Assembly (NCBI RefSeq): GCF_020091405.1
Contig: NZ_CP081903.1
Location: forward strand, 868,001 to 932,000
Length of the DNA stretch: 64,000 nucleotides
Reading direction: 5' to 3'
Source of the DNA: Bacteroides cellulosilyticus
GTDB taxonomy: Bacteria > Bacteroidota > Bacteroidia > Bacteroidales > Bacteroidaceae
How positions within the stretch are numbered: position 1 is the first letter of the stretch; each line of letters opens with the position of its first letter. The notes under the pieces are model-generated. The model was not told where the DNA came from. It was given only the letters and a program-made list of their open reading frames with translations, and made no database searches. The translations under genes were made by a program, and so were the position numbers. Shown here one piece after another: positions 7,006 to 54,592 of the stretch.

Positions 7006-10000
7006 ATGAATGTAAGACTTCATTTTTTGTTCACTTTGCTCACCGCCTCCCTGATCCCCCAGACGGGAGGCGCGCAAGAGCTTCCGACGGATGTCCGCCA
7101 GGAAATCGGTAAGTTTCTGGACGCAACCGCACGGAAAGAAGTTTCCGTAGGGCGCATCCGGATTGACTCTGTCGCCATTGAAGAAAATACGTTGCAATTA
7201 TTCGCTAACATGAACTGTGCATATATTCCTTTCCGGGAAGATAATGTGACAGAGATTTATCAAGGTGTGCAGGCATTGCTTCCGACAGAGTTTTCAAAAT
7301 ACAACCTGCAAATCCGCACAAATAAGCATAGCATTGAAGAATTAATCCCCCAAGCACTACGCAGCAAAAAGGACAAAAAAGCCAAAACATTCAATCCTGC
7401 CGGAACAAAACCTTTGGTAACGGCCCTTTCTACCCCCTATACCCCTACAAATGGCCTAAAGAACCGTCACATTGCCTTGTGGCAGAGTCACGGCTTCTAT
7501 TATGAGCCCAAACTGACACGTTGGGAATGGCAACGCGCCCGCATCTTCCAGACGGTGGAGGATTTATATACGCAAAGTTATGTACTGCCTTTCCTGGTTC
7601 CCATGTTGGAGAATGCAGGAGCTAATGTGCTGATGCCCCGTGAACGGGATAGCCAAATAGCAGAAGTTGTCGTAGACAATGACGGTTGCCTTCACTCCCG
7701 TTCCGTTTATACAGAAAAGATAGGCGATAAGAACTGGATGCAAGGTACCGGTGAAGGTTTCGCCCATCTGCGCGATCAATATATCAATTTTGAGAACCCA
7801 TTCCGTGAAGGAACCTTCCGCACTGTTGAGACGGTGAAAGGTAAGAAGGAGAAAGAAAGTACTGCCGAATGGATTCCTGAACTCCCGTCAACCGGACAGT
7901 ACGCCGTTTATGTATCCTATAAATCATTGCCAAACAGTACGGATGATGCCCTTTACACCGTTTATCACAAAGGAGGGGTATCCCAATTCAAAGTGAACCA
8001 ACAGATGGGTGGCGGCACCTGGATTTATCTGGGTACATTTGGTTTTGATGCCGGAAAAAGCGATGCCGGAAAAGTTGTTTTAAGCAATCGTTCTGAGAAA
8101 GCCGGACGTATCGTTACCGCTGATGCCGTAAAAATCGGAGGTGGTATGGGAAATATGGCCCGCCGTATCTCTGATGCAGGTGCCACAGAGAATATTAAAA
8201 GTTCTCAAGCTACAGGAGCTACGAGCTACGAGCTACAAGCTACAGGTGCTTTGCAGCATGACGGCGCAGCCAACTCGTCACTCGTAGCTCGTAGCTCGTC
8301 ACTATATGAGATAAGTGGTTATCCCCGTTTCTGCGAGGCAGCACGCTACTGGCTTCAATGGGCAGGTATTCCGGACAGTGTTTATTCCGACAGCCAGGGT
8401 AAGAATGACTATACGGATGATTACAAATGTCGTGGTATCTGGGTGAATTACCTTGCCGGTGGTTCTGCGGTTAACCCGACAGAACAAGGACTGAATATCC
8501 CGGTAGATATGGCTTTCGCCTTCCATTCAGATGCAGGAACTACGCTAAACGATTCCATCATCGGAACACTGGGTATCTACTATACCAACGTCTACAATGA
8601 AGAATATGCCAACGGAGCATCCCGCTATCTGGCACACGACATGACAGACCTGATTCAGTCAAATATCGTACGGGATATCCGCAGTCTATACGAACCGGAT
8701 TGGACACGCCGCGGTATGTGGAACCAATCCTACTACGAGGCACGCGTTCCCCGTGTCCCCACTATGTTGCTGGAGTTACTTTCTCACCAGAACTTTGCAG
8801 ACATGCGTTATGGTTTAGATCCACGCTTCCGTTTTACGGTAAGCCGTGCAATCTATAAAGGTATGCTGCAATTCATTTGCTCGCAATACCACATGGACTA
8901 TATCGTTCAGCCGTTGCCTGTCGACAATATGGCATTGAAAATGATAGGCGAGAATGAAATAGAACTGACCTGGCAACCCGTAGCCGACCCACTGGAACCA
9001 ACGGCAAATGCTGAGAAATACATTGTTTATACTCGCATCGGAGATGGCGATTTCGACAATGGCGTGTTGGTAGATAAGAATGCCTATCGCACTGCCCTCC
9101 CTGCCGGCATGGTATGCAGTTATAAAGTAACCGCCGTGAACAAGGGTGGAGAAAGTTTCCCGTCCGAAATACTCTCTGCAGGACGCGCTTTCAACGAGAA
9201 AGGAACAGTACTCGTAGTAAACGGCTTCGACCGCATCAGTGCTCCGGCAGATTTTGTCGCACCTGTTCCCGGAGATACTTTACTTGCCGGTTTCTTAGAT
9301 GATCTGGACCACGGCGTACCTTATCTGAAAGATATCAGCTATATTGGTAAGATGAAAGAATACCGCCGTTCCATTCCATGGATGGACGACGATGCTTCCG
9401 GCTTCGGCGACAGCTATGGCAATTACGAAGATAAAGTAATCGCCGGAAACACATTCGATTATCCCTCTATTCATGGAGCCGCCATTTTGAAAGCCGGATA
9501 TTCTTTCATATCTTGCAGCGATGAAAGTGTGGAAAATAGAACAATGAACCTGAACGACTATAAGTATGTAGACCTGATATTAGGTAAAGAATGTCAGACC
9601 AAAATGGGACGTGGCGGTGTGAAGCCGTTAGATTTCAAAACATTCAGCCAACCTATGCAGGAAGCTATCACCGCATATTGCGGACAAGGCGGAAACATCT
9701 TCGTCTCGGGTGCTTATGTAGGAACCGACCTTTGGGACAATCGTCTTGCCGCGGCTCAGGAGTCCGATAAGAAATTTGCAACAGAAGTCCTGAAATATAA
9801 GTGGCGCGTGGGGCAGGCAGCTACAGAGGGTAAGGTGAAATGTGTAGCTTCACCGTTCCCCGCCCTTTCAGGCAACTATACATACCATAATGAACTGAAT
9901 GCAGACAGCTATGTCGTAGAATCACCGGATGCCATCGAACCTGCAACGAAAGATGCATACACCATAATGCGCTATTCGGAAAACAACCTGAGCGCCGGAG

Positions 10001-10113
10001 TAGCTTACAAAGGCGACTACAAGACTTGCATACTGGGCTTTCCGTTCGAAGCATTGCGCACCGCCTCTGAAAGAGAAGCGTTAATGCGCGCCATCCTGAC
10101 ATTTTTTAATTAA
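7006..10113 (+). CDS. Amidase_3-like protein with golvesin-like and FN3 domains
   Basis: 1035 aa, secreted (signal peptide about 1-23). Residues 154-215 look like the first half of an N-acetylmuramoyl-L-alanine amidase: HIALWQSHG (His162), VEDLYTQ (Glu185), then LENAGANVLMPRERD. The second half resumes at 440-640, with FHSDAG (His507) and VPTMLLELLSHQN. Between them sits a golvesin/xanthan-lyase-like module (about 285-378, GGGTWIYLGTFGFDAG). An FN3-like domain follows (about 650-735), then a 300-residue C-terminal region I do not recognise. The three likely zinc ligands are kept. It would cut stem peptides from MurNAc in the periplasm. Residues 399-434 are encoded by an in-frame palindromic repeat also found elsewhere in the window. 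Such proteins are often labelled xanthan lyase, which I think is misleading. Confidence 0.72.
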   Translation: MNVRLHFLFTLLTASLIPQTGGAQELPTDVRQEIGKFLDATARKEVSVGRIRIDSVAIEENTLQLFANMNCAYIPFREDNVTEIYQGVQALLPTEFSKYNLQIRTNKHSIEELIPQALRSKKDKKAKTFNPAGTKPLVTALSTPYTPTNGLKNRHIALWQSHGFYYEPKLTRWEWQRARIFQTVEDLYTQSYVLPFLVPMLENAGANVLMPRERDSQIAEVVVDNDGCLHSRSVYTEKIGDKNWMQGTGEGFAHLRDQYINFENPFREGTFRTVETVKGKKEKESTAEWIPELPSTGQYAVYVSYKSLPNSTDDALYTVYHKGGVSQFKVNQQMGGGTWIYLGTFGFDAGKSDAGKVVLSNRSEKAGRIVTADAVKIGGGMGNMARRISDAGATENIKSSQATGATSYELQATGALQHDGAANSSLVARSSSLYEISGYPRFCEAARYWLQWAGIPDSVYSDSQGKNDYTDDYKCRGIWVNYLAGGSAVNPTEQGLNIPVDMAFAFHSDAGTTLNDSIIGTLGIYYTNVYNEEYANGASRYLAHDMTDLIQSNIVRDIRSLYEPDWTRRGMWNQSYYEARVPRVPTMLLELLSHQNFADMRYGLDPRFRFTVSRAIYKGMLQFICSQYHMDYIVQPLPVDNMALKMIGENEIELTWQPVADPLEPTANAEKYIVYTRIGDGDFDNGVLVDKNAYRTALPAGMVCSYKVTAVNKGGESFPSEILSAGRAFNEKGTVLVVNGFDRISAPADFVAPVPGDTLLAGFLDDLDHGVPYLKDISYIGKMKEYRRSIPWMDDDASGFGDSYGNYEDKVIAGNTFDYPSIHGAAILKAGYSFISCSDESVENRTMNLNDYKYVDLILGKECQTKMGRGGVKPLDFKTFSQPMQEAITAYCGQGGNIFVSGAYVGTDLWDNRLAAAQESDKKFATEVLKYKWRVGQAATEGKVKCVASPFPALSGNYTYHNELNADSYVVESPDAIEPATKDAYTIMRYSENNLSAGVAYKGDYKTCILGFPFEALRTASEREALMRAILTFFN
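8200..8304 (+). repeat. In-frame palindromic repeat element (copy A) inside the amidase-like gene
   Basis: The left arm is built of AGCTACRAG units (8208-8245) and the right arm of CTCGTAGCTCGTAGC units (8274-8303), with a centre containing TGCAGCATGACGGCGCAGC. It encodes residues 399-434, including TSYELQATGALQHDGAA. The element is in frame, has no stop, and sits between the golvesin-like module and the second amidase half. Copies B, C and D share the arms and centre. Confidence 0.8.
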
Positions 10114-17749: not shown

Positions 17750-17793
17750 TAACAAGTGATAAGTGGTAAGCAAGAAATCATAAATTATAAATC

Positions 17794-19026
17794 ATGAAGA
17801 AATACATTCTCCTCTGTGTCCTCTGCGTCCTCTGTGGTGCATCGCAGGCACAAAAGATTCGGATAAAGACAGGCATCGAAGTCCTGAAAGACCAGAACTT
17901 CAAGTGTCTGGAAGGCAAACGCGTAGGTCTGATTACCAACCCCACCGGAGTGGACAATCAGATGAAATCCACCATCGACATTCTGCACGAAGCACCGAAC
18001 GTGAATCTGGTCGCCCTCTTCGGCCCGGAGCACGGGGTTCGTGGTGACGTACATGCCGGCGACCACGTGACGGACATCAAAGACGCCACCACCGGACTGC
18101 CCGTATATTCCCTTTACGGCAAAACCCGCAAGGCTACGCCGGAGATGCTGAAAGACATTGACGTATTGGTCTACGATATCCAGGACATCGGTTGCCGCTC
18201 ATTCACCTATATCAGTACAATGGGGCTGGCTATGGAAGCAACGGCCGAAAACGGTAAAGAATTTATCGTATTGGACCGCCCCAACCCGGTAGGCGGACTC
18301 AAGATAGAAGGCAACCTGGTAGAAGATGATTGCATTTCCTTTGTCAGTCAGTTCAAGATTCCGTACCTTTACGGGCTGACTTGCGGCGAGCTGGCATTGA
18401 TGCTGAACGGAGAACGGATGATGGCGGCACCGTGCAACCTGCACGTTGTGAAGATGAAAGGCTGGAAACGCAAGATGGACTATGCACAGACGGGGTTACA
18501 ATGGGTACCCTCTTCTCCGCATATCCCTCATCCGCACTCGGCCGTGTTCTATCCGGTAAGCGGCATTCTGGGTGAACTGGGATACATGTCCATCGGAGTA
18601 GGCTATACGATACCGTTCCAGATGTTTGCCGCGCAGTGGGTAGAAGCAGAAAAACTGGCGGAACGCCTGAACGCATTGAACGTGCCGGGTGTTAAGTTCA
18701 GGCCGATGTATCTGAAACCCTTCTACTCCGTGGGCAAGGGCGAATTGCTGCAAGGCGTACAGGTACACATCATGGATGTGCAGAAAGCCCCGCTGAGCGA
18801 CATCCAATTCCTGGTGATGCAGGAAATCGCAGCGCTCTATCCCGACCGTGCCGTATTTGAGCATGCCGACAAGGGACGTTTCCGCATGTTCGACATGGTA
18901 AGCGGCTCGGAAGAGATACGCAAGCGGTTCTCACAGCGCAACCGGTGGGAAGATGTGCGCGACTATTGGTATAAGGATGCTGACGACTTCCGCCGGTTGT
19001 CGAAGAAGTACTACCTGTACAAGTAG
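17794..19026 (+). CDS. namZ: NamZ-type exo-beta-N-acetylmuramidase (DUF1343, GH171), copy 2
   Basis: 410 aa, periplasmic (signal MKKYILLCVLCVLCGASQAQ). Family motifs: LITNPTGVD, FGPEHGVRGDVHAGDHV, DIQDIGCRSFTY and LDRPNPVGG. The enzyme would release MurNAc from non-reducing ends, feeding MurT. The gene begins 44 bases after ampG in a spacer made of short repeats (GTGATAA and ATAAATCAT-like). It differs from the first copy at 4334 in much of its length while sharing the catalytic blocks. The next 250 bases are non-coding and carry a palindromic array before the dehydrogenase gene. Confidence 0.9.
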   Translation: MKKYILLCVLCVLCGASQAQKIRIKTGIEVLKDQNFKCLEGKRVGLITNPTGVDNQMKSTIDILHEAPNVNLVALFGPEHGVRGDVHAGDHVTDIKDATTGLPVYSLYGKTRKATPEMLKDIDVLVYDIQDIGCRSFTYISTMGLAMEATAENGKEFIVLDRPNPVGGLKIEGNLVEDDCISFVSQFKIPYLYGLTCGELALMLNGERMMAAPCNLHVVKMKGWKRKMDYAQTGLQWVPSSPHIPHPHSAVFYPVSGILGELGYMSIGVGYTIPFQMFAAQWVEAEKLAERLNALNVPGVKFRPMYLKPFYSVGKGELLQGVQVHIMDVQKAPLSDIQFLVMQEIAALYPDRAVFEHADKGRFRMFDMVSGSEEIRKRFSQRNRWEDVRDYWYKDADDFRRLSKKYYLYK

Positions 19027-19065: not shown

Positions 19066-19177
19066 GACATACGTATGTCACCCCTCATGAGATACGTATG
19101 TCAGGAGGTATGAGGTACTGTAGGTCATGGGTCATGAGATACGTATGTCATGAGTGGTGAGATACGTATCTCACCAC
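19066..19177 (+). repeat. TACGTA-centred palindromic array
   Basis: Four units share the core ATACGTAT followed by GTCA or CTCA, spaced 23-55 bases apart: 19066-19079 (GACATACGTATGTC, perfect palindrome), about 19092-19103, about 19138-19150, and 19154-19177, a perfect 24-bp palindrome GTGGTGAGATAC/GTATCTCACCAC. A degenerate fifth unit (GTACTGTAGGTCATG) lies near 19115. The array fills much of the 253-base gap between namZ copy 2 and the dehydrogenase gene. The rest of the gap (19178-19279) holds nothing I recognise. Confidence 0.7.
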
Positions 19178-19279
19178 AGGTGACATCGGGGCGACATCAG
19201 AGCAGCCCCACAGCACACCCTGACAGGGGTACAGGCAAAAGAGGAAAAGAATGATAAGGAAAAGAAAGGCGAAAACACT

Positions 19280-22200
19280 ATGGTAAAAAGTAGCTACACT
19301 TCGTTTTTGCGGGAAATAAGGGGACTTATTCCGCAAGATAGGATATACACCGACGAACTGCGCCGGTTAGCATGGGGAACAGATGCGGGTTTCTACCGTC
19401 TGATCCCACAAATCGTGATTCGTTCCAACAGCGAAGAGGAAATCTCCGACCTGTTGAGACTTGCCGACCGTTACAGTCTGCCAGTAACGTTTCGTGCCGC
19501 AGGAACCAGTTTGTCGGGACAAGCCATTAGTGACTCTATCCTGATCGTAGCCGGAAAGCACTGGGAGAAGTACAGCATTTCTCCCGATCATGAACAGATC
19601 ACCCTGCAACCGGGCATCATCGGCCAGCGGGTCAACGAGATTCTCGCGCCCTACGGACGTAAGTTTGCTCCGGACCCGGCAAGCGTGAAATCGGCCATGG
19701 TAGGCGGCATCGTCATGAACAACGCCTCGGGCATGAATTGCGGCACACATGCCAATAGTGACAAGGTACTTCTCTCCGCCCGCATCGTATTGGCGGACGG
19801 CACCGTGCTGGATACAGGGGACGACATTTCGCGTGCTTCCTTCGAAGCCACCCACCCCGATTTCCTTAACCGCATCTGCGAACTGCGCGACCGGATACGT
19901 GCCAACGAAGAACTCGCCACACGCATCCGCTACAAATATTCCATCAAGAACGTAACCGGACTGAATCTCCTGCCATTCGTCCGCTTCGACGACCCGTTCG
20001 ATATTATTGCCCACCTGATGGTAGGCTCGGAAGGCACGCTTGCGTTCCTTTCCCAGATTACCATGCGCACCGAGTACGACTATCCGCACAAGGCAAGCGC
20101 CATGCTCTACTTTACCAGTATCAAGGATGCTTGCCGGGCGGTGGTGGCGATGAAGGAGCTTAAAAATGAAGAATTCTTCATTCCTCATTCTTCATTCATT
20201 GTGAAGGGTGCCGAGTTGCTGGACTACAAGAGTCTTTCTTCCGTAGACGACCCCATATATATAAGGTATAAGCAAGAAGTCTCCGATCCCTCCGGCCTCA
20301 CCGCCGTGCTGACCGAGACCAAAGCCCGCACCCGCGAGGAACTGGAACAGAATATCTCAGCGATCGAAGAGTGTCTGAAACCTTTCAGCACCTACATCCC
20401 CGTGCACTTCACCGACCGACCGGAAGAATATTCCAAGTATTGGGCTATCCGCTCAGGCATATTCCCATCCGTAGGCGGTACACGCCAGCCCGGCACTACC
20501 TGCCTCATTGAGGACGTAGCCTTCCACATCGAAGACCTGCCCGAAGCCACTGCCGCCCTGCAACAGCTCATCGCCCGCCACGGCTACGATGATGCCTGCA
20601 TCTACGGTCATGCTCTGGAAGGCAACTACCACTTTATCCTGAACCAATCTTTCAGTACCGACACCGAAGTAAAGCGCTACGAGGACCTGATGAATGACGT
20701 AAAGACCTTGGTAGTCGATAAATACGACGGCTCGCTGAAAGCAGAACATGGCACCGGACGCAACATGGCCCCCTTCGTGAAATATGAATGGGGAGAGGCA
20801 GCTTTTGAAGCCATGAAGGCAGTCAAGCAGTTGTTCGACCCGAAAGGGCTGCTCAATCCGGGAGTTATCTTCAATGATGACCCGCAATGCCACATCAAAA
20901 ACTTCAAACCGTTGCCGTTGTTACGAGCTACAAGCTACGAGCTACAAGCTACGAGTACCATGCAGAATGATAGCGCAGCACTGGTAGCTCGTCGCTCGTC
21001 GCTCGTAGCTCTTTCAACTGACAAGTGCATCGAGTGTGGCTTCTGCGAAGTGAACTGCCTGTCGTGCGGCTTTACCCTTTCTTCGCGCCAGCGCATTGTA
21101 TTGCAACGGGAAATATCACGTCTGAAACAAAGCGGTACAGACCAGGAACGTCTGTCTCTACTCGAAAAACAATACCGCTACCCGGGCAATCAAACTTGCG
21201 CAGGAGACGGACTATGCTCCATGTCCTGCCCGATGAATATCAATACAGGCGACCTGACCCATATCATCCGCCAGGAAGCACTGCCGAAAGGTAGCCTCGG
21301 ATATAAAGCAGGAGATTTCGTAGCCAATCACTTCGCTGGTGTTAAGAGTAGTCTGCGCCCCGTTTTGTCATTAGCCAATTTCGGACACTCCGTATTGGGA
21401 ACCAAAGCCATGAGCAGCATTACGAAAGGAATGCACAATGTATTGGGCGTGCCTTTGTGGACGCCTGCCATGCCAAAGAGCTATAAAGTTGAAACAGCTA
21501 CCAGTGACAAGCTACCAGCTACAAGTACTATGCAGAATGACAGCGCAGCACTTGTAGCTGGTAGCTCGTCACTCGTAGCCGACAAAGTCGTTTATTTCCC
21601 CAGCTGCATCAACCAAACCATGGGCCTCCCGAAGCACTCCCCCGTGGAACAACCTTTGGTAAACAAGATGATCTCCCTCTTGCAAAAAGGCGGTTACGAA
21701 GTCATCTTCCCAAAGGAGATGGATAAGCTCTGCTGCGGCACCATCTGGGAAAGTAAAGGTATGCTCGACATTGCCGATCGCAAAGCCGCAGAACTCGAAG
21801 CCGCCCTTTGGGAAGCCAGCGAGCAAGGCAAATATCCTATCCTCTGCGATCAGAGCCCCTGCCTGCACCGCATGCGCGAAACCATTCAAAAGATGAAGCT
21901 CTACGAACCTGCAGAATTCATCTACACCTTCCTGCGGGACAAACTGGTCTTCACGCAGACCGACCGCCCCGTAGCAGTACACATCACCTGCTCCATGCGC
22001 AAAATGGGGCTGGCAGATACGATTGTCTCCCTGGCAAAACTTTGTTCCACGCATGTCTTCGTACCCGAAGAAGTAGGCTGCTGTGGTTTTGCCGGCGACC
22101 GCGGATTCACCTATCCCGAACTGAATTCCTATGCCTTGCGCAAACTCCGTCCGCAGATAGAAGCATCCGGCATCACCATCGGCTACTCCAACAGTCGTAC

Positions 22201-22309
22201 CTGCGAAATAGGACTGACTACCAACTCTGGTATCCCCTATGTCTCTATCGCCTATCTCGTAGACCAATGCACGAAGAGCGTGAAAGCTGAAGCAACTGAT
22301 AACTTATAA
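19280..22309 (+). CDS. FAD/Fe-S oxidoreductase, probable D-lactate dehydrogenase
   Basis: 1009 aa, no signal peptide. Domains in order: FAD_binding_4 (about 35-200, FAPDPASVKSAMVGGIVMNN), FAD-oxidase_C (to about 535), two [4Fe-4S] motifs (CIECGFCEVNC about 585 and CAGDGLCSMSCP about 640), then two cysteine-rich CCG halves (FPSCINQT, LCCGTIW; ITCSMRKMG, GCCGFAGDRG). This layout is that of YdiJ/HI1163-type D-2-hydroxyacid dehydrogenases. D-lactate is the likely substrate because MurQ, encoded nearby, releases D-lactate from MurNAc-6-P. Three in-frame repeat insertions are present: a short palindrome at residues 296-308 and two long elements at 549-578 and 739-768, the latter two exactly between domains. 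Confidence 0.8.
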   Translation: MVKSSYTSFLREIRGLIPQDRIYTDELRRLAWGTDAGFYRLIPQIVIRSNSEEEISDLLRLADRYSLPVTFRAAGTSLSGQAISDSILIVAGKHWEKYSISPDHEQITLQPGIIGQRVNEILAPYGRKFAPDPASVKSAMVGGIVMNNASGMNCGTHANSDKVLLSARIVLADGTVLDTGDDISRASFEATHPDFLNRICELRDRIRANEELATRIRYKYSIKNVTGLNLLPFVRFDDPFDIIAHLMVGSEGTLAFLSQITMRTEYDYPHKASAMLYFTSIKDACRAVVAMKELKNEEFFIPHSSFIVKGAELLDYKSLSSVDDPIYIRYKQEVSDPSGLTAVLTETKARTREELEQNISAIEECLKPFSTYIPVHFTDRPEEYSKYWAIRSGIFPSVGGTRQPGTTCLIEDVAFHIEDLPEATAALQQLIARHGYDDACIYGHALEGNYHFILNQSFSTDTEVKRYEDLMNDVKTLVVDKYDGSLKAEHGTGRNMAPFVKYEWGEAAFEAMKAVKQLFDPKGLLNPGVIFNDDPQCHIKNFKPLPLLRATSYELQATSTMQNDSAALVARRSSLVALSTDKCIECGFCEVNCLSCGFTLSSRQRIVLQREISRLKQSGTDQERLSLLEKQYRYPGNQTCAGDGLCSMSCPMNINTGDLTHIIRQEALPKGSLGYKAGDFVANHFAGVKSSLRPVLSLANFGHSVLGTKAMSSITKGMHNVLGVPLWTPAMPKSYKVETATSDKLPATSTMQNDSAALVAGSSSLVADKVVYFPSCINQTMGLPKHSPVEQPLVNKMISLLQKGGYEVIFPKEMDKLCCGTIWESKGMLDIADRKAAELEAALWEASEQGKYPILCDQSPCLHRMRETIQKMKLYEPAEFIYTFLRDKLVFTQTDRPVAVHITCSMRKMGLADTIVSLAKLCSTHVFVPEEVGCCGFAGDRGFTYPELNSYALRKLRPQIEASGITIGYSNSRTCEIGLTTNSGIPYVSIAYLVDQCTKSVKAEATDNL
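20165..20200 (+). repeat. In-frame AATGAAGAATTCTTCATT palindrome inside the dehydrogenase gene
   Basis: A perfect 18-bp palindrome at 20165-20182 is followed by a further ATTCTTCATTCATT half. It encodes NEEFFIPHSSFI within the FAD-oxidase_C domain, between MKEL and VKGAELLDYK. It looks like an inserted intergenic-type hairpin and differs from the GAGCTACAAG class. Confidence 0.6.
20924..21013 (+). repeat. In-frame palindromic repeat element (copy B)
   Basis: Left arm CGAGCTACAAGCTACGAGC, centre ATGCAGAATGATAGCGCAGCA, right arm GGTAGCTCGTCGCTCGTCGC. It encodes residues 549-578 (TSYELQATSTMQNDSAA inside), between the FAD-oxidase_C domain and the first [4Fe-4S] motif. In frame, no stop. Confidence 0.82.
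21494..21583 (+). repeat. In-frame palindromic repeat element (copy C)
   Basis: Shares the centre ATGCAGAATGACAGCGCAGCA with copy B (one base apart) and has arms of CTACCAGCTACAAG and CTTGTAGCTGGTAGC type. It encodes residues 739-768, between the Fe-S region and the first CCG domain. The 30-residue peptide matches that of copy B in most positions. Confidence 0.82.
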
Positions 22310-24436: not shown

Positions 24437-24489
24437 TCACCCCAGCCCTCATAAATCATAAATTATAAATCATAAATCTCATCATCATC

Positions 24490-52130: not shown

Positions 52131-54488
52131 ATGAAAGCAATATTCAAAAAAGCAAGCCTGTTGCTGATGGGTGCCCTGATGGGCATAGCATCTGCACAGG
52201 CGCAAAAGTCTCCACAAGACATGGATCGCTTCATCGACGCACTGATGAAGAAGATGACCGTGGAAGAGAAAATCGGACAATTGAACCTACCCGTCACGGG
52301 AGACATCACCACGGGACAGGCCAAGAGCAGCGACGTGGCACAAAAGATTGAAAAAGGATTGGTGGGCGGACTCTTCAACCTGAAAGGGGTAGACCGTATT
52401 CTTGAAGTGCAAAAGCTGGCAGTAGAGAAATCACGCCTCGGTATTCCCCTGCTGTTCGGCATGGATGTGATACACGGGTACGAAACCATCTTCCCTATTC
52501 CATTGGGATTGTCCTGTACCTGGGATATGGCAGCTATTGAGAAGTCCGCCCGTATTGCAGCCATCGAAGCAAGTGCCGACGGCATTTCCTGGACATTCAG
52601 TCCGATGGTAGACATCAGTCGCGACCCACGTTGGGGACGTGTCAGTGAAGGCTCGGGAGAAGATCCGTTCCTGGGTGGAGCTATCGCACAGGCAATGGTA
52701 TACGGATACCAGGGTGCCAATCTGCAAGACCAGTTGCACCGCAACGATGAAATCATGGCTTGCGTAAAGCACTTTGCACTGTATGGAGCCGGAGAAGCCG
52801 GACGCGACTATAACACAGTAGATATGAGCCGCAACCGGATGTTCAATGAGTTTATGTACCCGTATGAGGCTGCCGTAGAGGCCGGAGTGGGTAGTGTAAT
52901 GGCGTCATTCAATGAAATAGACGGTATTCCCGCCACCGGAAACAAGTGGCTGCTGAGTGATTTGCTGCGTGGTCAGTGGGGCTTCGAAGGGTTTGTGGTA
53001 ACGGACTTCACAGGCATTTCAGAGATGATAGAGCATGGTGTCGGCGACTTGCAGACCGTCAGTGCACTCGCTCTTAATGCAGGGGTGGACATGGATATGG
53101 TAAGTGAAGGCTTCGTCGGTACACTGATGAAATCCATTAAAGAAGGAAAAGTAAGAATGGGCACGTTGAATACAGCCTGTCGCCGGATATTGGAAGCGAA
53201 ATACAAGCTGGGACTGTTCGATAATCCTTATAAATACTGCGACGTGAACCGTCCGAAACGGGATATCTTCACAAAAGAGCATCGTGACGCCGCCCGCAAG
53301 ATTGCCGGCGAAAGTTTTGTTCTTCTGAAGAATACCCCCACCACCGCACAGCCACTCGTAGCTCATAACTCGTCAACCGTAGCTGCTTCACCCGTGCTTC
53401 CGTTGAAGAAGCAAGGCACAGTTGCCGTCATCGGCCCTCTCGGAAATACCCGCAGCAATATGCCGGGCACCTGGAGCGTAGCCGCACGCCTCAACGATTA
53501 CCCTTCTTTATACGAAGGCTTGAAAGAAATGATGGCAGGCAAGGTCAACATCACCTATGCCAAAGGTAGTAACCTTATCGGCGATGCAGCTTACGAAGAA
53601 CGTGCCACCATGTTCGGCCGTTCATTGAACCGTGACAATCGCACAGACCAGGAGTTACTGGACGAAGCACTGAAAGTTGCAGCCGGTGCCGATGTTATCG
53701 TAGCTGCACTGGGAGAATCTTCTGAAATGAGCGGTGAAAGTTCAAGCCGCACCGAACTCGGCTTGCCCGATGTACAGCATACTTTATTGGAAGCCTTACT
53801 GAAAACAGGCAAACCCGTAGTACTAACCCTCTTTACCGGTCGGCCGTTGACGCTGAACTGGGAACAGGAGCATGTACCTGCCATCCTGAACGTATGGTTC
53901 GGAGGCAGTGAAGCGGCTTATGCCATTGGCGATGTTCTGTTCGGTGACGTGAATCCGAGTGGAAAACTAACCATGACTTTCCCGAAGAATGTAGGCCAGA
54001 TACCTTTGTTCTACAATCATAAGAATACCGGTCGGCCACTGGCAGCAGGCAAATGGTTCGAAAAGTTCCGTTCAAATTATCTGGATGTGGATAATGAGCC
54101 GCTATATCCCTTCGGTTATGGATTGTCATATACCACTTTCCAGTACAGTGACATTGCATTGAGCACACCGACATTGGGAAAAGATGGTTCCGTTACAGCC
54201 GTAGTCACCGTCACCAATACAGGCAAACATGACGGTGCGGAAGTAGTTCAACTCTATATCCGCGACCTCGTAGGAAGCATCACCCGCCCTGTACGCGAGT
54301 TGAAAGGGTTCAATAAAATCTTCCTTCGTGCCGGAGAAAGCAAAACGGTATCATTCACTATCACGCGTGATCTGCTTCGCTTCTATGATTACAACCTGAA
54401 CTACGTAGCCGAGCCGGGTGACTTTGATATCATGATCGGTGGAAACAGCCAGGCTGTGAAGACGGCGAAGTTGACGCTGAGCAAGTGA
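52131..54488 (+). CDS. GH3 beta-glucosidase (BglX-like)
   Basis: 785 aa, periplasmic (signal ending SAQAQ). GH3 N-terminal barrel with KHFALYGAGEAGRDYN and the nucleophile strand FVVTDFTGISEM, then the alpha/beta sandwich with ALGESSEMSGESSSRTELGLP (acid/base Glu), and a C-terminal FN3-like domain (VVTVTNTGKHDGAEVVQLYI). It releases glucose from beta-linked oligosaccharides; context with a GH144-like gene suggests beta-1,2-linked (sophoro-) substrates. Residues 404-421 (TAQPLVAHNSSTVAASPV), between the first two domains, look like a decayed half of the palindromic element. A full element follows directly at the stop. Confidence 0.92.
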   Translation: MKAIFKKASLLLMGALMGIASAQAQKSPQDMDRFIDALMKKMTVEEKIGQLNLPVTGDITTGQAKSSDVAQKIEKGLVGGLFNLKGVDRILEVQKLAVEKSRLGIPLLFGMDVIHGYETIFPIPLGLSCTWDMAAIEKSARIAAIEASADGISWTFSPMVDISRDPRWGRVSEGSGEDPFLGGAIAQAMVYGYQGANLQDQLHRNDEIMACVKHFALYGAGEAGRDYNTVDMSRNRMFNEFMYPYEAAVEAGVGSVMASFNEIDGIPATGNKWLLSDLLRGQWGFEGFVVTDFTGISEMIEHGVGDLQTVSALALNAGVDMDMVSEGFVGTLMKSIKEGKVRMGTLNTACRRILEAKYKLGLFDNPYKYCDVNRPKRDIFTKEHRDAARKIAGESFVLLKNTPTTAQPLVAHNSSTVAASPVLPLKKQGTVAVIGPLGNTRSNMPGTWSVAARLNDYPSLYEGLKEMMAGKVNITYAKGSNLIGDAAYEERATMFGRSLNRDNRTDQELLDEALKVAAGADVIVAALGESSEMSGESSSRTELGLPDVQHTLLEALLKTGKPVVLTLFTGRPLTLNWEQEHVPAILNVWFGGSEAAYAIGDVLFGDVNPSGKLTMTFPKNVGQIPLFYNHKNTGRPLAAGKWFEKFRSNYLDVDNEPLYPFGYGLSYTTFQYSDIALSTPTLGKDGSVTAVVTVTNTGKHDGAEVVQLYIRDLVGSITRPVRELKGFNKIFLRAGESKTVSFTITRDLLRFYDYNLNYVAEPGDFDIMIGGNSQAVKTAKLTLSK
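53341..53394 (+). repeat. Decayed half of the palindromic element (copy E) inside the GH3 gene
   Basis: GCACAGCCACTCGTAGCTC and GTCAACCGTAGCTGC match the centre end and right arm of copies A-D, with several changes and no left arm. It is in frame and adds about 18 residues in the linker between the two GH3 domains. Confidence 0.5.
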
Positions 54489-54565
54489 CAAGCTACAAGC
54501 TACGAGCTACAAGTGCCTTTCGGACTACACAGCGCAGCCACTTGTAGCTTGTAGCTCGTAGCTTA
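54486..54565 (+). repeat. Intergenic palindromic element (copy D)
   Basis: The left arm CAAGCTACAAGCTACGAGC continues to TACAAGTG, and the right arm CACTTGTAGCTTGTAGCTCG continues to TAGCTT; they pair over about 26 bases with two mismatches. The centre holds CGGACTACACAGCGCAGC. It begins at the GH3 stop codon and may serve as its terminator. Confidence 0.8.
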
Positions 54566-54592
54566 TTTATCATCCCTAACCCCTTATTAATT

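Follow-up and report, generated by a model that had tools for sequence, protein, structure and literature searches.

The window, as the whole 64,000-nt stretch of DNA analyzed here is called, harbors a gene at 19280-22309 (plus strand) that encodes a protein of 1009 amino acids, assigned as an FAD-linked oxidase/Fe-S (4Fe-4S, CCG) oxidoreductase and named D-lactate-dehydrogenase-like in an earlier sequence-only reading of the same DNA. Judged by this protein, the nearest named relatives are Bacteroides timonensis (97%) and B. cellulosilyticus (91%). Two full palindromes, both on the minus strand and both in frame, are present in the gene, namely copy B (20922-21010), which encodes residues 548-577 (LRATSYELQATSTMQNDSAALVARRSSLVA), and copy C (21495-21579), which encodes residues 739-767, each of them backed by repeat, covariance-model and alignment evidence. 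Their cores lie on the plus strand at 20957-20979 (ACCATGCAGAATGATAGCGCAGC) and 21527-21549 (ACTATGCAGAATGACAGCGCAGC), respectively. The two copies have 84 nt in common at 86% identity and are inverted repeats, which confirms the earlier claim of two near-identical in-frame palindromes at these places of one enzyme; the arms of copy C are 33 nt long, 91% complementary and separated by 17 nt, and the predicted folds amount to -40.0 kcal/mol for copy B and -51.6 kcal/mol for copy C. A third palindrome of the GAATGAA type (20161-20201, no strand assigned) lacks the core and encodes residues 294-308 (LKNEEFFIPHSSFIV), and at its site a core-bearing element is found in B. stercorirosoris.

The Pfam layout of the host protein comprises FAD-oxidase_C (270-529), Fer4_8 (580-654) and CCG (770-862), so that copies B and C are located between domains, as had been proposed from the sequence, but the proposal does not extend to the third palindrome, which lies within FAD-oxidase_C. 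In a structure prediction of the host protein, confidence is low for the region of copy C (737-765) and for a larger stretch (533-603) that includes copy B, and not low for the third palindrome (294-308). The figure of 30 residues added by each copy holds for the length of the element but not for the net gain, which is 21 residues at site B (34 versus 13, between KPLPL and KCIECG) and approximately 17-20 at site C (35 versus 15 and 18 in two species that lack any obvious palindrome); at both sites, the former linker was replaced and not simply lengthened.

Further copies are found elsewhere in the window. Copy A (8216-8300, minus strand) is in frame in a Golvesin_C-domain ORF (7006-10113), copy D (54485-54571, minus strand) is intergenic, with its outermost heptad providing the TGA stop codon of a GH3 gene (52131-54488), and half-copy E (about 53350-53386, plus strand; limits and reading judged by eye) is a single arm that reads in frame within the GH3 gene. 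Repeats of other kinds also occur in the window: a different intergenic palindromic repeat composed of GAGATACGTATGTCAT units occupies 19066-19186 and is partly absent from B. cellulosilyticus, and AT-rich period-7 arrays (AAATCAT/AAATTAT) lie beside gene starts at 17775-17798 and 24449-24478.

The palindromes belong to a family that is dispersed over the genome, a single contig of 6.94 Mb in which the window spans positions 868001-932000. There are 205 occurrences of the arm motif AGCTACRAGCTAC in this genome versus one of the reversed pattern, and hence the palindromes are not a product of chance. With a covariance model built from 12 copies, 150 of 1908 candidates were scored, and the matches merge into at least 95 sites, and copies B and C were also matched in a further covariance-model search given 50 sources. 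Genes were called with a home-made program, a hexamer scorer that had the window as its training set (coding density 0.842). By these calls, 86 of the sites are intergenic, three extend across gene ends and six are in frame within genes. These six are A, B, C and three copies found in a proposed homoserine kinase, in threonine synthase (ThrC) and in phosphoribosylformylglycinamidine synthase, respectively, the last with a shortened core. The orientation relative to the gene is identical in all six.

Each element consists of a core of ~25 nt, about ACYATGCRGCRTGATAGCGCAGCC in gene sense, between inverted tandem arrays of a 7-nt unit (Most core positions were preset by the search pattern; outside the pattern, the C at position -3 is 91% conserved). 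Among 84 non-redundant elements (<80% identity) drawn from 104 core hits, the dominant lag within the range 4-12 is 7 in 74 and another lag in the remaining 10, and the lag-7 autocorrelation is 0.51 as opposed to 0.29 after shuffling. The heptads that accompany the core in this genome are AGCTACR, GAAGAAT, AAGTATT and AGTGATT, and arms of GACAATT, GAGAATT, GAGAAGG, GAAAATT as well as of period 8 and period 9 are seen in other genomes, identical copies being counted once in this listing, in which the B. timonensis twin stands for copy B. The two arms of an element match each other: the complementarity score averages 21.9 with the own partner and 9.0 with the arms of others (0 of 2000 permutations), and within the AGCTAC type alone (21 elements) the values are 22.5 and 18.2 (0 of 2000). 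In 27 of the 84 elements, no other arm scores as well as the own partner. Low complementarity (score <14) is seen in 12, including the armless match L259, and four of these 12 (L298, L300, L305 and L307), all from one genome, have unlike heptads on the two sides, with L307 being a nested insertion. When pairs were counted over 58 distinct rows in an alignment fitted to the structure, 95.6% of the cells were paired versus 94.0% in shuffles, and 38 cells were changed on both sides versus 19.5 (each 0 of 500 shuffles); two of the five covariation measures were weak, with both-side-changed pairs matched by 110 and further pair types by 23 of 500 shuffles. Rfam searches with seven loci gave nothing above the gathering score (best match 40.2 bits, gathering score 99), and membership in a known RNA family was rejected, with 11 weaker matches of these loci to microRNA-type hairpins (best E 0.0006) taken as chance.

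Inside predicted genes, where 28 of the 104 core hits are located, the core is mostly read in one frame, termed s0 (xMQxDxAA), which accounts for 24 hits, with two in s1, including the armless match, and two in a2; after removal of redundancy, the shares are 17, 2 and 2 of 21. These hits include orthologous sites and correspond to about a dozen distinct gene sites by hand count. The expectation of the same frame every time thus stands for most copies, but not for all of them. Cores are about equally stop-free in the three frames (s0 94, s1 97 and a2 101 of 104), and therefore the bias calls for protein-level selection or another cause. As 7 and 3 are coprime, the heptapeptide cycle encoded by a heptad array is identical in all frames, and any stop codon within the heptad returns every 21 nt, so that particular units would have to change within genes. 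In this genome, the stop-free units GTCACT/GTCGCT constitute 8 of 21 units of the 3' arm in genes versus 10 of 280 elsewhere. No open frame is present in 73 of the 86 intergenic copies, while all six in-gene copies are open, which partly reflects how genes were called.

Threonine synthase illustrates how variable such sites are. The loop between YYF and NFG spans 26-67 residues among the 120 homologues listed, out of 8000 scored, together with the protein of this genome, and it holds several heptad-type inserts or none, with the types judged from residues and not from DNA. The insert is absent from the solved structure 1vb3, which we take to be E. coli threonine synthase. Residues 249-263 of the predicted ThrC structure have a pLDDT <50 (mean 71.9), and the predictions, made from alignments of 30 and 25 rows, weakly suggest that the inserts are placed in flexible regions. 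Solved structures containing the added peptides were not found with two peptide queries.

The exact core pattern was present in 20 of 119 Bacteroides genomes and the reversed pattern in none of them, and the match in one of the 20 (G015, locus L259) lacks arms and looks like chance. Among 295 Bacteroidales genomes no other armed copy was found, with matches only in this genome and in one further genome (G331), where the match is armless. A looser hairpin model gave matches in 24 of 61 genomes, this one included, two of which are outside Bacteroides. No viral contig carried the one exact core consensus tested, on which basis carriage by phages was rejected, and a plasmid search with copy D as query yielded one partial match, in B. 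finegoldii, covering 54% of the query. Within the reach of these sequence searches, the family is found only in Bacteroides.

Presence and absence of the element vary among close relatives. For the host gene, 80 orthologous loci were fetched, 28 of which were used for protein alignment, six for comparison of DNA and all for a scan for the core residues. Core-like residues were detected in four of the 80, all from Bacteroides, and orthologues from distant genera did not carry the same residues. At site B, inspection by eye of 29 aligned proteins (the 28 and this one) showed that three contain the element (this genome, B. timonensis and an uncultured relative), 19 have a short linker and seven have some other, longer insert. 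Site C is filled in this genome, in B. cellulosilyticus and in the uncultured relative, and a different, coreless palindrome occupies it in B. timonensis; in B. stercorirosoris, sites B and C both carry GACAATT arms around the same core. Over 15.9 kb, the window matches B. timonensis at 98.6% identity, with two indels of at least 15 nt, one of them at site C. Directly in front of an ORF, B. timonensis (L337) carries an additional 121 nt that contain CGCTACAGCC repeats; this insertion is absent here, between 13482 and 13484. Gene fusion, by which an intergenic element would have become a linker, was rejected for site B, as the protein is fused in element-free species as well, through a short linker, and also in the case of ThrC, whose insert sits inside one enzyme. 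Other genes likewise show palindromes, with variant or empty loops among relatives.

At one orthologous site, the arms themselves differ. Four genomes with flanks of 97-99% identity contain three arm types and both core orientations there: GACAATT arms in B. timonensis, GAAGAAT arms in this genome and in G081, with the core inverted relative to B. timonensis, and shorter GAGAGTT arms in G066, also with an inverted core. Identity to B. timonensis in the left and right flank is 98.8 and 97.0% for this genome, 98.8 and 99.3% for G081, 99.4 and 97.0% for G066, and 89.2 and 87.6% for a fifth genome, the uncultured CAMTFK G067, whose arms are 8 nt long. In the best rotation, determined by hand, the heptads differ at only two to three of seven positions, and hence ordinary change followed by homogenization is possible at this site. 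At a second orthologous site, three genomes carry GAGAGTT-type arms and a fourth carries AAGTATT arms, and there, too, the core occurs in either orientation. The L300 element, with its unlike arms, represents a gain: the flanking genes are adjacent in all eight comparison loci (12 genomes searched), and the spacer measures 67-74 nt without core or palindrome in seven of them and 535 nt in the eighth (L357). The gained element starts directly behind the stop codon. Since the flanking genes neighbor each other in all eight loci, chromosomal rearrangement as a source of mixed arms was rejected for L300. One of the seven short orthologous spacers, at L355 (genome G014), contains a one-sided heptad array of the TTCTTCAT type without a core. 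Elsewhere in this genome, ~6.9 kb (6645863-6652804) separate the two flanks that abut the L331 element of B. timonensis.

Could whole palindromes instead be inserted by a transposase encoded elsewhere, as in miniature inverted-repeat transposable elements (MITEs), with arm types as lineages that have a recognition site in common and same-site differences as reinsertion into hot spots? Two amplified groups in this genome bear on this question. Compound elements, in which the heptad palindrome has an extra hairpin in its loop and is flanked by one or two further hairpins and by AATGATAATTTA/TAAATTATCATT ends, are present at eight sites (2900801, 3348372, 3392939, 3517690, 3821031, 4364543, 5699106 and 6172843; L061-L068) and apparently spread recently; they are 95.5-100% identical in pairs over 155-201 nt at unrelated sites, and three of the group have TA at both edges by eye. 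Among 20 sites that have one core variant in common, nine have matching flanks beyond the heptads (GGAAT.../...TGATTCAT), five with the core in one orientation and four in the other, and three more match on one flank. In some of the 20, TAATGCGAATC...GTTGAA lies at a greater distance, giving the impression that they are nested inside a larger repeat resembling a MITE. Given the flanks in common, hitch-hiking spread may apply to the eight compound elements and to part of the 20 sites. As an account of the family, however, insertion by such a transposase appears rather unlikely: the 334 proteins encoded within 2 kb of elements contain no recurrent gene family (largest cluster three), reinsertion would have to reproduce the same outer boundary in five genomes, and linker or spacer sequence was replaced and not split.

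The placement of the elements relative to genes raises the alternative that they are functional RNA hairpins of 3' ends, acting as terminator, mRNA stabilizer or translation-end signal, the stems of which drift with pairing kept and the in-gene copies of which are accidental. Among 62 non-redundant intergenic core elements outside the window that are bordered by called genes on both sides, neighbors are convergent in 28 cases, tandem in 33 and divergent in one, and the core edge lies a median of 37 nt from the stop codon (IQR 31-50). Of the 33 tandem elements, 29 are closer to the stop codon than to the next start. The same is true of 52 of 58 tandem elements in the set of at least 95 sites, where the median distance is 6 nt from the upstream stop to the element and 67 nt from the element to the next start; the first heptad often completes the stop codon of the upstream gene. 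Frequent one-sided changes from A-U to G-U pairs would also be accommodated by an RNA function. On the other hand, 13 of 88 neighborhoods in the larger set are divergent, and five Ts within 15 nt beyond either end are found at only five of 95 elements, so that few resemble intrinsic terminators. Avoidance of promoters would yield much of the same placement, and both the arrival inside enzymes and the coherent change of heptads are left unexplained. The RNA explanation is slightly less plausible than that of a MITE.

Mobilization as repetitive extragenic palindromes (REPs) by a RAYT (Y1 HUH) transposase was rejected and is very improbable. The elements are palindromic, intergenic and near stop codons, with GTAG within the heptads, and a Bacteroidetes subclass of Y1 enzymes flanked by atypical structures is reported in PMC6006769, but Y1_Tnp has no match at E <= 0.001 in this genome. 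Assuming the same draw of genomes, the 26 of 119 genus genomes with Y1 matches are distributed as five of the 20 core-positive and 21 of the 99 others, and among 14 Y1 loci that were fetched, five from core-positive genomes, none has a core or a lag-7 array within 500 bp (at L342, the upstream side is removed by the contig end). Many Bacteroides Y1 genes (L340-L352) are flanked by different repeats of their own, such as GCCCTTTCAGGGC and GTAGGGC-type palindromes. Ordinary protein-level linker expansion or selected peptide repeats, to which the DNA palindrome would be incidental, would suit the location of the examined in-gene copies in variable loops or linkers and the predominance of one frame, but can practically be dismissed, as the same DNA is mostly intergenic and mostly untranslatable there and its arms are complementary at the DNA level.

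The reading that we favor, with a probability of roughly 60%, is that copies B and C are in-gene members of a Bacteroides palindromic family, in which the core is conserved and the arms are rewritten on both sides together. The interpretation offered by the sequence-only reading, that of palindromes entering reading frames, is supported. Copies are found mainly in the spacer immediately after stop codons, with a minority in protein loops and linkers, where survival would require a length that keeps the frame and stop-free versions of heptads that otherwise give in-frame TAG or TAA. The xMQxDxAA frame is favored probably because a small-residue, hydrophilic and flexible linker results. Rewriting of both arms together, by which one site could come to have GAAGAAT, GACAATT or GAGAGTT in close relatives with the core kept, may proceed by polymerase slippage in steps of 7 nt, combined with copying in which one arm of the hairpin serves as template for the other. 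The period-7 arrays fit slippage, as proposed for heptameric repeats (Mrazek 2007, cited in PMC4679880), and copying across the hairpin would suit the fact that both arms change in step. The core may be kept for recognition or recombination, while its conservation is also suggestive of an RNA function. More tentatively, and with the odds somewhat against it, the element could be a rewritable hairpin cassette, in which the core directs the joint replacement of both arms, at a fixed boundary, by a new inverted heptad array, with a flip of the core possible and the flanks remaining 97-99% identical.

Several known systems resemble the family in part. A possible relation is to the BrickBuilt MITEs of Porphyromonas gingivalis, which consist of short repeats nested within one another. 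They come from the same order as the Bacteroides elements; their name appears in PMC5771137. Bacterial MITEs in general are described as small, gene-free inverted-repeat elements, for which in-frame fusions are known (PMC10969869); as to their terminal inverted repeats and partner transposase, target-site duplication was not found here, with TA on both sides at the ends of some compound copies only, and the genome-wide search for an enzyme covered Y1_Tnp. Rickettsia palindromic elements (RPEs) are depicted in the same source as palindromic repeats of ~150 bp in ten families, nearly half of them in ORFs, that are in frame in unrelated metabolic genes with a conserved encoded peptide (PMC10969869). 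As far as descriptions can be compared, the Bacteroides palindromes are similarly fused in frame into unrelated genes, whereas they measure ~85 bp, have six of 95 copies in ORFs and carry exchangeable heptad arms around one core. The earlier comparison with Rickettsia-like invasion of frames is hence largely right as to in-frame entry, differences between sister species and stop-free arm units in genes, but does not account for the majority of copies, which are intergenic and abut stop codons, nor for arms that are exchangeable heptad arrays around a core. Like GTAG- and CGTC-tagged REPs, the elements are short, many-copy and mostly extragenic palindromes; however, REPs are 20-40 bp long with a terminal GTAG or CGTC tag, and GTAG REPs have stems of 5-13 bp with the tag outside the pairing (PMC3733652), while the elements here are ~85 bp long with GTAG inside paired heptads, stems of several heptads and no linked RAYT gene. 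Tandem 7-nt units in intergenic DNA are shared with the heptameric repeats of Xanthomonas (GGGAATC) and Beggiatoaceae (TAACTGA), the former forming convergent inverted pairs in 70 and 75 cases (PMC4692102), but each published account is devoted to a single heptad and the passages in question mention no conserved core, as opposed to many heptads and one core here. The suggestion that the element is new to Bacteroides agrees with searches of the open-licence literature, in which no paper was recognized as describing these elements in Bacteroides.

With this family, coding palindromes are documented for a major gut genus in addition to Rickettsia, and the question of how dispersed bacterial palindromes arise and stay palindromic becomes testable, with orthologous sites that have near-identical flanks but different arms serving as natural experiments. 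It also accounts for odd peptides in Bacteroides proteins, such as SYELQATSTMQNDSAA, NSQLTIDNS...NCQLSTVNCQL and MKNEEL..., in proteins that include threonine synthase, the proposed homoserine kinase and phosphoribosylformylglycinamidine synthase, and it provides fast-changing loci usable for strain typing. If true, the cassette would constitute a bacterial system for the concerted, in-place rewriting of palindromes, which incidentally supplies flexible linkers to core enzymes.
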